Shown here: positions 7,715-14,014 of the stretch, piece by piece
How positions within the stretch are numbered: the first letter of the stretch is position 1
Layout of the letters: each line of letters opens with the position of its first letter
NCBI GenBank assembly: GCA_005798685.1
Contig: SYIT01000072.1
Coordinates: forward strand, 1 to 37,754
Direction: 5' to 3'
From: Actinomycetota bacterium
GTDB taxonomy: Bacteria > Actinomycetota > Thermoleophilia > Solirubrobacterales > Solirubrobacteraceae
DNA: 37,754 nucleotides
Program-made: the position numbers and the translations under genes
Notes under the pieces: model-generated
Seen by the model: only the letters and a program-made list of their open reading frames with translations
Told to the model about the DNA's origin: nothing
Database searches by the model: none

Positions 7715-8812
7715 ATGACCGTCACTGAGTTTCAGGAACTGGACGAAATCAAGACGCTTGTAGCCCGCGGCGCGCAGACCGGAGTGCTCTCGCACGCCGA
7801 CATCGCCAGCGCCACCGCCGAGCTCGACCTTGATGATTCGGACCGTGATGAGCTGAAGAGTTGGATCGAAAGCCAGGAGATCGAACTGATCGACGATGAT
7901 CCTTCGGCTCCCGCCGCACAGGCCGAGCGCGCCCCCGACAAGCGCACCCGCCGCCGCGCCAAGGCCGCAATCGACCTGCGTCCGGACATGACGACCGATT
8001 CGCTGCAGCTCTTTCTCAAGGACATCGGCAAGGTTCGCCTGCTGACCGCCCAAGAAGAGGTTGACCTGGCGAAGAAGATCGAGCGCGGCGACCTTGACGC
8101 CAAGCACAAGATGGTTGAGTCGAACCTGCGCCTAGTCGTTTCGATCGCGAAGAACTACCGCAACCAAGGCCTGCCGTTCCTCGACCTAATTCAAGAAGGC
8201 ACGCTCGGCCTCGTCCGCGCGGCGGAGAAGTTCGACTACCGCAAGGGCTTCAAGTTTTCGACCTACGCATCTTGGTGGATCCGTCAGGCGATCGCTCGCG
8301 CGCTGGCCGACAAGGCGCGCACAATCCGCATTCCAGTTCATGTCGTTGAGAAGCTCAACAAGATCGGCCGCGCCGAACGCAAGCTCGTCACCGAGCTGGG
8401 CCGCGAGCCGACGCCGGAGGAGATCGCCGCAGTAACCGGCATTGATCCCGAAGAGGTTGATCAGATCAAGCGTTCAGCCCAGGCGCCTGTCTCGCTTGAG
8501 AAGCCTGTTGGCGACGAGGAAGAGTCCGAGTTCGGCCAGTTCATCGCCGACGAGCGGGCCGAGTCGCCTTACGAGCGCGCCGCAGAGGTCCTCACGAAGG
8601 AGGCCCTGCGCGAAGCGCTGGAGAATCTTTCCTACCGCGAGCGCCGCGTGCTTGAGCTCCGTTACGGACTCGGCGGCGAGCACCCACGCACGCTCGACGA
8701 AGTTGGCCGCACCTTCAACGTCACGCGCGAGCGGATCCGCCAGATCGAGAACCAGTCGCTGAAGAAGCTGCAGTCGCTGGCCGAAGCACAGAAGCTCCGC
8801 GACGTAGCCTGA
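7715..8812 (+). CDS. rpoD: Principal RNA polymerase sigma factor (RpoD/SigA type)
   Basis: [130 protein letters not shown]. Confidence 0.97.
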
Positions 8813-8834
8813 GCGGTTGTGCTGCGCCCTCTGG

Positions 8835-8864
8835 TTGACTGTGCTGTGCGGGCGCGGGTATTGT
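8835..8864 (+). promoter_or_regulatory. Predicted sigma70-type promoter of peptide cassette 1
   Basis: TTGACT (8835-8840) - 18 nt - TATTGT (8859-8864); ATG 79 nt from -10 start, matching the other two cassettes. Confidence 0.6.
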
Positions 8865-8895
8865 GATCGATGTGCTTGCGCGCCTGCTAGCGCGC

Positions 8896-8911
8896 AGTTG
8901 GAAGACCAACT
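8896..8911 (+). other. 5'UTR hairpin of cassette 1
   Basis: AGTTGG-AAGA-CCAACT perfect 6-bp stem, 4-nt loop. Confidence 0.45.
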
Positions 8912-8937
8912 AACTACGAGACGTTTGGAGCTACCCA

Positions 8938-9234
8938 ATGAGTTTTGATCCCCTAATTAAGGCCTTAGAAGAGAACCCAGCGCTCGCTGAGGAGCTCGGG
9001 AACGCTAAAACCCCTCGCGAACGCGACGCAATTCTCGACGCCCACGGAATCGAAAAGCCAACCCTCGACTCACAATTTCCAGATGCCGCCGGTGGCGTAT
9101 TTTTGCTTTCGGTTGCCAGGGCGGGGGCATATGGGCACGCCGCGCGACAAAGGAGGTTGGCAGCTTTGGACGAGGCCGCGGGGTGGGTCGGGGTGCCCCC
9201 GGGGGGCGCGTGGTTACCTCCCAACGAGCGATAG
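8938..9234 (+). CDS. Predicted double-glycine leader peptide precursor 1 (RiPP-like); leader 8938-9096, core 9097-9231
   Basis: MSFDPLIKALEENPALAEELGNAKTPRERDAILDAHGIEKPTLDSQFPDAAGG | VFLLSVARAGAYGHAARQRRLAALDEAAGWVGVPPGGAWLPPNER; GGAG 7 nt before ATG. Confidence 0.75.
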   Translation: MSFDPLIKALEENPALAEELGNAKTPRERDAILDAHGIEKPTLDSQFPDAAGGVFLLSVARAGAYGHAARQRRLAALDEAAGWVGVPPGGAWLPPNER

Positions 9235-9317
9235 CAATTGGTAGCTCCCCTTTAGTACGTAAGTCCAGGTTCTCACCTCGCGTCCTTTGCTACTCACTTG
9301 GCCACTTGGTTCGCGGG

Positions 9318-9345
9318 TTGGCAGGGCTGGCGCCATAAGTATCGT
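9318..9345 (+). promoter_or_regulatory. Predicted promoter of peptide cassette 2
   Basis: TTGGCA (9318-9323) - 16 nt - TATCGT (9340-9345); aligned with the cassette 3 promoter. Confidence 0.6.
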
Positions 9346-9417
9346 AGTGTGTGCCCTTGTGTCCTGTTGGTGCGCAGGCGTAAGAGCAGTTAACCCAACG
9401 ACGGATGGAGCTAATCG

Positions 9418-9615
9418 ATGAGTTTTGATCCGCTAGTTAAGGCCTTGGAAGAGAACCCAGCGCTCGCTGAGGAGCTTGGGAACGCTAAAACCCCTCGCGA
9501 ACGCGACGCAATCCTCGACGCCCACGGAATTGAAAAGCCAGGCCCGGACTCCCAGTTCCCGGAGGCTGGGGGGATAAGGTGGGCGCCCACGATCAGGCGT
9601 GATCCGCGTTTCTAG
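9418..9615 (+). CDS. Predicted double-glycine leader peptide precursor 2 (RiPP-like); leader 9418-9573, core 9574-9612
   Basis: MSFDPLVKALEENPALAEELGNAKTPRERDAILDAHGIEKPGPDSQFPEAGG | IRWAPTIRRDPRF; GGAG 7 nt before ATG. Confidence 0.75.
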   Translation: MSFDPLVKALEENPALAEELGNAKTPRERDAILDAHGIEKPGPDSQFPEAGGIRWAPTIRRDPRF

Positions 9616-9661
9616 ATGGTATCGGACGGTGCTAAGCAACTGGCGTAGCGTGGTTCGCTGG

Positions 9662-9689
9662 TTGACAGGGCTGGGGCCGCGGGTATCGT
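9662..9689 (+). promoter_or_regulatory. Predicted promoter of peptide cassette 3
   Basis: TTGACA (9662-9667) - 16 nt - TATCGT (9684-9689); ATG 76 nt from -10 start. Confidence 0.62.
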
Positions 9690-9759
9690 GGCGTTTGCTT
9701 GTGTGCTGACGCTGCGCAGGCGCAAGAGCAGATAACCCAACGACGGATGGAGCTAATCG

Positions 9760-9981
9760 ATGAGTTTTGATCCGCTAGTTAAGGCCTTGGAAGAGAACCC
9801 AGCGCTCGCTGAGGAGCTCGGGAACGCTAAAACCCCTCGCGAACTCGACGCAATCCTCGACGCCCACGGAATCGAAAAGCCAACCCTCGACTCACAATTT
9901 CCCGAGGCAGCCGGTGGAGGGGGGGACGAAACCGACTGGATGGGGAGTGGGGGAGGGCCCTGGTGGGTGCGGCGCGAGTAG
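9760..9981 (+). CDS. Predicted double-glycine leader peptide precursor 3 (RiPP-like); leader 9760-9918, core 9919-9978
   Basis: MSFDPLVKALEENPALAEELGNAKTPRELDAILDAHGIEKPTLDSQFPEAAGG | GGDETDWMGSGGGPWWVRRE; GGAG 7 nt before ATG. Confidence 0.75.
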   Translation: MSFDPLVKALEENPALAEELGNAKTPRELDAILDAHGIEKPTLDSQFPEAAGGGGDETDWMGSGGGPWWVRRE

Positions 9982-10136
9982 GAGGGGGCGGTACAGGTCG
10001 TGTGTGGAGGGACGGGATCCTGGACGCGTCGTGGTCGCCTTGGTCGTGGGGAGATGAGGCGGGGGCGGGGTAGGTGGAGCATGGGTCGCTGGGCGTGGTA
10101 TAGCGCTGAGATCTCCCTCGTAAGCCCGTAGCGGTC

Positions 10137-10158
10137 GGTCCCCCGCTGTGGGGCCTTT
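10137..10158 (+). terminator. Candidate Rho-independent terminator downstream of the cassette array
   Basis: GGTCCCC-CGCTGT-GGGGCC followed by TTTCGTCCTTT (one bulged base). Confidence 0.4.
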
Positions 10159-10294
10159 CGTCCTTTGGTGCTCACGTGGCCGCCCAGTCCGCTGCGTAGC
10201 CATGTGTACCAACGCTGAACGTATTGCTTGAGGGCAGGATCGACATCGAGGGTGGAGGGCGCCGCGCAATGTGAACGGCACTGCGGCGTCACTT

Positions 10295-12199: not shown

Positions 12200-14014
12200 G
12201 TGTTTGACCCATTCGCGCTGCCCTTCTTCCAGCGTGGAATCGTCGAGATTCTGATGCTGGCATCTGTTTCCGGCCTGCTTGGCGTCTGGATCGTGCTGCG
12301 CGGGCTGGCTTTTTACGCCCACGCCGTCGGCACCGCCGCCGTCCCCGGACTTGTGCTCGCCGACGGGCTTGGCTTCTCGGCAATCTTTGGAGCGTTTGGC
12401 GCGGCGCTTGTGATGGCGGCCTTGATCGCGCTGCTGCTGCGCCGGCGTTCGGTCGGCGGCGACAGCGCGACGGCGCTTGTTCTTGCCGGCGCGCTGGCGC
12501 TTGGAGTGATTCTCGCCAGTGACGTTTTTGGCTCGCAGGGAAGCGTTGATCGGCTGCTCTTCGGCAGCCTGCTGGCGATCGGCACGCCGGAACTGATCCT
12601 CGCCGCAGTCGCTGCGCTCGCCGCAGCAGTGGCGACAGCGATCTTTGGCCCACGCTGGTTGGCGGCAGGTTTCACCGATCGCAGCGGCAGCAGCGACTCG
12701 CTGCTGATCGCGCTGATCGCGCTTGCCGCCGTTGCCGCGCTTGCCGCCGTCGGCGCTCTGCTTGCTACGGCAATCCTTGTAGTACCGGCCGCGACAACGC
12801 GGCTGATCATCAAACGTTTGCCGCTCTGGCAGCTAACAACCGCCGCGCTGGCCGCGGCAGAAGGAGCGATCGGAATGACCCTCGCCTACCAGTTGAACGT
12901 GCCTCCAGGGGCGGCGATCGCCGTGCTCGCGGGGATCGTCTTCGCGCTCGTCGCAATTGCCGTGCTGATCCATCAACGCCGCCCGCGGCTGGCTCCGCTG
13001 GCGCTAACGCTGCTCGGCCTGAGCGCGCTGGCTGTCGCCGGCTGCGGCAGTGACGACGGTGGCGAAGCTTCCAGCTCCAAGATCACCGTCGCTGCGACGA
13101 CAACCCAGGTCGGTGACCTCGTTCGCGAAGTTGGCGGCGACGCGGTGACCGTTAAGCAGATCCTGACGCCCAACTCCGAAGCCCACGACTATGAGCCGCG
13201 CCCAAATGACGTCGGTGCAGTCGCCGCTTCGAAGATCGTCTTTGCCAGTGGGCTCGGGCTTGACGCATGGTCGACAAAGCTCGTCAAGGAATCAGGTTCG
13301 GAGGCTGAAGTCGTCGATCTCAGTAGCGGGCTGCCTGTCAGCTACGCAACCGGTGAAGGCGAAGTGCACGCCGATGAGAAGGAAGGCGAAGCGCACGCCG
13401 ATGAGAAGGAAGGCGAAGCGCACGCCGATGAGAAGGAAGCGCACGGCCATGGTGAGACCGACCCACACTGGTGGCACGACCTCACCAACCTCGAAGCGGC
13501 GACGACCGAGGTGGAGACGGCGCTGATTGCGGCCGATCCGGCGGCGAAAGATCAGATCACGGCCAACGCCGATGCATACCGCGCCACGATCAAGAAGGTT
13601 GATAAGCAGATTCGTGCCTGCCTGAACAAGGTGCCGGCAAACGAGCGGCTGATCGTCACCGACCACGACGCCTTCATCTACTTCACCGAGCGCTACGGAG
13701 TTACCTCGAAGGGCGCCGCATTCCCCTCAACTTCTACGCAAGGGCAGGCATCTGCCGGTGAGGTCGCGGCGCTTGAGAAGCTGATCCGCGAGGCGAAGGT
13801 GAACGCGATCTTCCCTGAGAGTTCGCTGAACCCGGCTCTTGCCGAGCGAATTGCCAGCGACACCGGCGCTTCATCTGACTACACGCTCTATGGCGATACG
13901 CTCGGCGCTGCCGATTCGCCAGAGGGAACCGTGCTCGGCGCCGAAGCTGCCAATGCCAAAGCGATGGTCGCGGGGATGACCGGGGGTAAGGAGAGATGCA
14001 GGATCGAGCCCTGA
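12200..14014 (+). CDS. Fusion protein: metal ABC transporter permease (ZnuB-like, N-terminal ~265 aa) + zinc-binding lipoprotein SBP (ZnuA-like, C-terminal)
   Basis: N-term EILMLASVSGLLGVWIVLRGLAFYAHAVGTAAVPGLVLADGLG (ABC-3 permease); internal HQRRPRLAPLALTLLGLSALAVAGCGS signal/lipobox; then KITVAATTTQVGDLVREVGGDAVTVKQILTPNSEAHDYEPRPNDV (ZnuA) with His-rich loop. Confidence 0.88.
   Translation: MFDPFALPFFQRGIVEILMLASVSGLLGVWIVLRGLAFYAHAVGTAAVPGLVLADGLGFSAIFGAFGAALVMAALIALLLRRRSVGGDSATALVLAGALALGVILASDVFGSQGSVDRLLFGSLLAIGTPELILAAVAALAAAVATAIFGPRWLAAGFTDRSGSSDSLLIALIALAAVAALAAVGALLATAILVVPAATTRLIIKRLPLWQLTTAALAAAEGAIGMTLAYQLNVPPGAAIAVLAGIVFALVAIAVLIHQRRPRLAPLALTLLGLSALAVAGCGSDDGGEASSSKITVAATTTQVGDLVREVGGDAVTVKQILTPNSEAHDYEPRPNDVGAVAASKIVFASGLGLDAWSTKLVKESGSEAEVVDLSSGLPVSYATGEGEVHADEKEGEAHADEKEGEAHADEKEAHGHGETDPHWWHDLTNLEAATTEVETALIAADPAAKDQITANADAYRATIKKVDKQIRACLNKVPANERLIVTDHDAFIYFTERYGVTSKGAAFPSTSTQGQASAGEVAALEKLIREAKVNAIFPESSLNPALAERIASDTGASSDYTLYGDTLGAADSPEGTVLGAEAANAKAMVAGMTGGKERCRIEP
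13358..13438 (+). repeat. 3 x 27-bp in-frame tandem repeat encoding (GE[VA]HADEKE)3 His-rich metal loop
   Basis: ggcgaagygcacgccgatgagaaggaa x3. Confidence 0.95.

Follow-up and report, generated by a model that had tools for sequence, protein, structure and literature searches.

Introduction

Nif11-type precursors of the N11P family (TIGR03798), together with the NHLM exporter (TIGR03794, TIGR03796 and TIGR03797), were described by Haft et al. in 2010, who found NHLP and Nif11 precursors to cluster with exactly these families of exporter proteins and argued, in the NHLP case, that leader conservation is owed to the exporter rather than to a maturase (PMC2887384). In the LanM-associated NHLP group, the core averages 26 aa (PMC2887384). 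Here we analyzed contig SYIT01000072.1 of a Solirubrobacteraceae bacterium (assembly GCA_005798685.1, below G000), a stretch of 37,754 nt that we call the window, in which three tandem genes encode one leader followed by unrelated cores. Judging from sequence comparison, these genes probably (at a probability of roughly 0.78) belong to a set of dispersed Nif11-type precursors with hypervariable, swappable cores that would be guided by the leader, cleaved by a C39 peptidase and exported by an NHLM-type system, possibly unmodified.

The resemblance to N11P/NHLM systems extends to the Nif11-type leader, the end of conservation at Gly-Gly, the short hypervariable core (mean 24 aa here), paralogous expansion and matching exporter families, whereas the present leader is shorter (52-53 aa) and diverged, scoring below the TIGR03798 cut-off and, in the window copies, also below that of Pfam, the cores are Cys-free, no known maturase was found in the genomes searched, and the host is an actinobacterium. 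The first-pass annotation of the window had proposed an undescribed family; this holds for the peptides of this lineage but not for their kind, since Nif11/N11P precursors with NHLM exporters were described in 2010 (PMC2887384), and a literature search returned no paper naming Nif11 together with Solirubrobacter.

Prochlorococcus and Synechococcus make prochlorosins (ProcA/ProcM), lanthipeptides that contain Cys and are formed by a LanM, and prochlorosin genes have been linked with recombination genes and transposases (PMC10783134). As with the prochlorosins, many scattered precursors that have the same leader but unrelated cores occur here in an aquatic bacterium with a small genome, and one enzyme set presumably serves them all; the present system differs in that neither a LanC-like gene nor a core Cys was found. 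The Lah cluster, with precursors LahA1-9 and the C39 transporter LahT, likewise combines Nif11 leaders with diverse cores, which its C39 domain cleaves at a double Gly; C39 substrates carry a helix before Gly-Gly with hydrophobic residues at -4, -7 and -12 (PMC6363468). LahT substrates dock through this helix, whereas the corresponding stretch here, PxLDSQFPEAGG, is polar and contains proline. As for peptides outside the Nif11 group, class II bacteriocins are unmodified double-glycine peptides. The peptides described here may, like them, be cleaved by C39 and exported without modification, but their leader is long and Nif11-like, no recognizable immunity gene lies beside the precursors, and the cores are not cationic as a class.

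Results

A shared leader that ends at Gly-Gly

Three consecutive open reading frames with a common N-terminus of 52-53 aa were found exactly as the first-pass annotation had quoted them, and their features are as follows:

8938-9234, forward: precursor gene 1, 98 aa (leader 53 aa, core 45 aa)
9418-9615, forward: precursor gene 2, 65 aa (leader 52 aa, core 13 aa)
9760-9981, forward: precursor gene 3, 73 aa (leader 53 aa, core 20 aa)
8876-9103, forward: copy 1 of a 228-nt repeat unit (5' untranslated region and leader), by DNA repeat comparison
9356-9583 and 9698-9925, forward: copies 2 and 3 of the repeat unit, by DNA repeat comparison
8835-8864, forward: promoter-like site of gene 1, TTGACT-18-TATTGT, consensus match
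9318-9345, forward: promoter-like site of gene 2, TTGGCA-16-TATCGT, consensus match
9662-9689, forward: promoter-like site of gene 3, TTGACA-16-TATCGT, consensus match

The three repeat-unit copies are 77-89% identical in DNA, and the unit ends where the leader ends. Each gene has its own promoter-like site ending 70-73 nt before the ATG, a position that is kept across paralogues for these putative promoters (TTGACA-16-TATCGT or TACCGT, at the same distance, also in five copies of the congener G012), and the conserved 5' untranslated region carries a GGAG motif. Between paralogues, DNA identity fell from 75-94% in the leader to 25-29% (~27%) past the boundary and had reached background ~20 nt downstream of the conserved Phe-Pro, at Gly-Gly, in line with the annotated end of similarity. 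The boundary itself is mostly GG; other copies have AAG, GAG, GR or FPGGG.

A search with the 53-aa leader detected a fourth copy in G000, on contig 43 (E 2.5e-23), and ten copies on four contigs of G012; given these matches, the leader repeat in the window is, by sequence, beyond chance. Single copies occur in G013 and, in degenerate form, in G009, and three are present in G374, a metagenome-assembled genome (MAG; 9% contamination) binned to another family of the same class. G011 encodes a diverged protein of 152 aa in which one Nif11-like leader domain directly follows another and a Gly-Gly core is lacking (locus L044, G011:C13, 20-478, minus strand). The distribution is narrow: 5/121 relatives were leader-positive, in a sample of 399 class genomes G374 alone was positive outside the genus, the more distant MAG KLAP17 holds a leader relic with a broken N-terminus, and no copy was found in viral contigs.

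The annotation had noted a loose Nif11-like resemblance, and the leader is best described as a diverged Nif11-type leader on profile matches: 17 of the 18 family leaders matched Nif11 (PF07862, best E 1.7e-5), the sole family matched by more than one leader, alongside one stray match to another. AlphaFold predicted three helices at residues 5-35 and disorder beyond, including the core, with moderate confidence (mean predicted local distance difference test score 65). The general plan of Nif11/NHLP-type precursors, a conserved leader up to Gly-Gly and then a hypervariable core, was found. Observations named beforehand as evidence against such a family did not materialize: conservation beyond Gly-Gly was not seen, most copies are intact (a stop inside the leader truncates the precursor in the copy G12_C3c), and leader homologues normally stand alone, the G011 protein being the one exception.

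Cores are hypervariable and biased in composition

Across 17 cores with 411 aa in all, there was no Cys, as the annotation had reported for the window, although the bases of the 16 independent cores would predict 11.8 ± 3.2. Relative to the same expectation, the cores are rich in Phe and Pro and poor in Arg. Core lengths range from 13 to 46 aa (mean 24) and are tighter than those of random tails (Kolmogorov-Smirnov test, P = 0.02; the probability that all lengths fall within the observed range was set aside as post hoc). So the cores appear hypervariable without being random read-through, except perhaps for core 1 of the window (45 aa), which has the most random-looking composition and could be a decayed core. 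As a separate observation, the precursor stop is TAG in 12/16 independent cases, versus 42% of the long open reading frames of the genome (P = 0.008).

Between paralogues, leaders differ at a proportion of 0.079 (8%) of nonsynonymous sites (pN) and 0.41 (41%) of synonymous sites (pS), which indicates that they are under purifying selection. One orthologous pair with a recognizable core is available, the contig 43 copy of G000 and the G013 copy. Here the ratio of nonsynonymous to synonymous substitution rates (dN/dS) is ~0.11 in the leader, and divergence is highest in the core (dN ~0.28, dN/dS ~0.9), while only 5/150 positions (~3%) differ in the downstream (3') flank; despite this heavy divergence, the frame and both ends of the core are retained and its length is almost unchanged. 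Elsewhere, one 42-nt piece is common to the cores of G12_C26c and G12_C3a.

These data bear on a very unlikely alternative, namely that these are repetitive promoter-leader cassettes, that their frames simply run into whatever DNA follows, and that the cores are accidental tails. The end of DNA similarity at the leader end, the leader stop in G12_C3c, the random-looking core 1 and a G012 core that overlaps a decayed reverse-transcriptase gene in antisense or borders on it (see below) would all fit such tails, but the lack of Cys, the Phe/Pro excess, the Arg depletion, the narrow lengths, the purifying selection on leaders, the core of the contig 43/G013 pair that holds its frame, ends and length, and the linkage to an exporter all argue against it.

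An NHLM-type exporter on contig 103

The annotation saw no C39 transporter in the window, and there is none there. It also placed modification and/or export with enzymes encoded elsewhere, of which the export part gained support and the modification part did not. Searched family by family, G000 yielded the following genes on contig 103:

C103 8645-9442, reverse: HlyD-like gene, weak match to TIGR03794 (NHLM_micro_HlyD)
C103 6416-8632, reverse: ABC1, 738 aa, with an N-terminal C39 peptidase domain, TIGR03796 (NHLM_micro_ABC1), 777.8 bits
C103 3877-6477, reverse: ABC2, 866 aa, TIGR03797 (NHLM_micro_ABC2), 625.0 bits

The three genes stand in one run, as in the NHLM operon plan. The C39 domain of ABC1 scores above the Pfam cut-off, its Cys (ECGAA), His and Asp (NDP) are present by alignment, and the active site is apparently intact. 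A precursor in G374 begins 54 nt after an ABC2 gene whose product is 72% identical to that of G000, and contig L026 of KLAP17 holds HlyD, ABC1, ABC2 and the leader relic within 9 kb, with an ABC1 of 878 bits, over the TIGR03796 cut-off. Among 17 genus genomes, an NHLM-grade ABC2 occurred only in G000 (625.8 bits) and G013 (523 bits), both leader-positive, an association of ABC2 with intact leaders that reached significance (Fisher's test, P = 0.02). The G013 ABC2, cut by a contig end, is 97% identical to that of G000 over 187 aa and adjoins the same hydrolase gene, while the exporter site is empty in G004 and G011, where the flanking hydrolase and fumarase genes are adjacent. We infer that the contig 103 exporter would cleave and export these peptides.

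Several observations weigh against this reading. In the window's own genome, precursors and exporter are unlinked, and the ABC1 and ABC2 scores lie somewhat under the equivalog cut-offs. The window leaders are also under the curated NCBIfam/Pfam cut-offs, with 18.7-19.9 bits against PF07862 (cut-off 23.8) and 13.7-13.9 bits against TIGR03798 (cut-off 32.3), which the third copy did not match. No C39 peptidase was found in G012 despite its ten leader copies, in an assembly whose contig breaks inside the gene beside the exporter site. Finally, the sequence before the boundary, KPxLDSQFPEAGG, lacks the hydrophobic -4/-7/-12 helix, and no helix is predicted past residue 35, so cleavage, if it occurs, should differ in mode from that of known C39 substrates. 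An apparent lack of the exporter in G012 and G374 was given no weight, because in both genomes the contig stops at or within the exporter locus.

The missing docking motif, together with the tandem-domain G011 protein, would suit a leader domain that serves protein binding or regulation, its tail being irrelevant and neither cleaved nor exported. Such a role is highly improbable given the exporter linkage in two other MAGs (G374 and KLAP17), the end of conservation at the expected boundary, and tails that are accelerated and biased in composition.

In G013, locus L057 (G013:C215, 1343-5462 and 7065-8762) carries another pair resembling NHLM-ABC2 (523 bits), in which no C39 domain is evident, near a subtilisin-like protease gene and a beta-lactamase-like gene.

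Searches for modifying enzymes

Nif11 precursors usually go with maturases (PMC2887384), and a classical ribosomally synthesized and post-translationally modified peptide (RiPP), whose core a leader-dependent maturase from another locus (of the lanthionine, azole, radical-SAM or some other class) alters before export, must be weighed against export of a possibly unmodified core. No match to LANC_like (PF05147), YcaO (PF02624) or SPASM (TIGR04085) was found in six genomes, with radical SAM enzymes lacking SPASM not searched; the MAGs are 78-94% complete, several at 92-94%, and some control genomes gave matches. In these six incomplete MAGs, the LanC-like domain of class II lanthipeptides and prochlorosins was not seen, nor, in the 17 cores, was their Cys; nor did the six genomes show the enzymes of azole RiPPs (thiazole/oxazole-modified microcins and linear azol(in)e-containing peptides) or of SPASM radical-SAM RiPPs. 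The inserted block and the neighborhood of the G000 exporter are also devoid of an enzyme gene. In KLAP17 (L026), positions 8887-9186 of the minus strand, directly upstream of HlyD in the NHLM operon, encode the C-terminal portion of what may be a lanthionine synthetase; the gene is interrupted by the contig end and weakly matches lanthionine synthetases (NF038151, E 1e-6), so relatives of these peptides may be lanthipeptides. This gene piece and the modifiable Ser, Thr, Trp, Tyr and Asp/Glu in the cores favor the classical RiPP, but with the unmatched enzyme families, the 17 Cys-free cores and the surroundings free of enzyme genes, we regard it as somewhat unlikely.

Gain of the block and replacement of a core at one site

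Comparison with congeners placed the three genes in an insertion:

7715-8812, forward: sigma-70-family factor gene (rpoD-like), the 5' neighbor outside the system, assigned by sequence and conserved flank
8816-10262: insertion block of ~1447 bp (~1.45 kb) with the three precursor genes, defined against six congeners

The block sits between rpoD and an HxlR-type regulator gene. In G007, G009, G010, G011, G014 and G001 the site is empty, and DNA matching up to 8815 resumes at 10263; the junctions were read, and the boundaries are good to a few nucleotides. The same site is occupied in G000 (three precursors, ~1.45 kb) and in G012 (four precursors, longer block). Gene 1 and the first G012 precursor behind rpoD are positional orthologues with 91% DNA identity from rpoD through the leader, a match that ends at position 9092 of the window, within the Gly-Gly stretch, beyond which G012 encodes an unrelated 25-aa core versus the 45-aa core in the window. 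By this alignment, the copy next to rpoD has had its entire core exchanged between the two species.

The window block showed neither an integrase or transposase gene nor an inverted repeat, and no plasmid match was found. At its end, the G012 block carries a frame-shifted fragment of a reverse transcriptase (RVT_1, E 0.003, under the family cut-off), which lies in decayed form at G012:C26 3178-3494 (L041, L020, L099, L100), with the core of the neighboring, last precursor running antisense into it. A reverse transcriptase as diversity generator was rejected, since two frame-shifted fragments occur in G012 only and none in eleven other genomes searched; the G012 fragments were treated as a relic. 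The sequence CAACGCTGAACGTATTGCTT(G)AGGG is common to window positions 10209-10231 and the region just after a G374 precursor stop (L025, ~3329), otherwise different loci, and is possibly the end of a mobile unit. An unlikely extension of these observations is a mobile promoter-leader cassette that would create new exported peptides by placement before any DNA whatsoever, including the antisense strand of a defunct reverse-transcriptase gene, with one exporter and no modifying enzyme.

Further downstream (12200-14014, forward), the window holds one 604-aa open reading frame that looks like a fusion of a metal-ABC permease with a periplasmic binding protein in which a His/Glu-rich sequence, GEVHADEKEGEAHADEKE, is tandemly repeated.

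Discussion

In the mechanism that we propose, each precursor would join a conserved, helical leader of the Nif11 type to a variable core of 13-46 aa. The NHLM-type exporter of contig 103 (HlyD-like, ABC1 with C39, and ABC2) would most likely recognize the leader, and C39 would cut after the small-residue, mostly Gly-Gly, boundary and free the core outside the cell. One exporter could then serve many scattered, independently transcribed precursors, the cores of which would be free to diverge or swap. Whether the cores leave the cell unmodified or are altered by an enzyme class outside those searched is, in our estimate, evenly balanced.

If this reading is right, the one-exporter, many-cores design of the marine prochlorosins extends to a small-genome actinobacterial lineage, in a form without a recognized modifying enzyme and with a non-canonical cleavage motif. 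The mobile cassette, if true, would be a leader-capture route to de novo peptides. Gain is clear from the empty sites in six congeners, and core replacement from the different cores that two species carry at one locus, so direct comparison can address how new core peptides arise.
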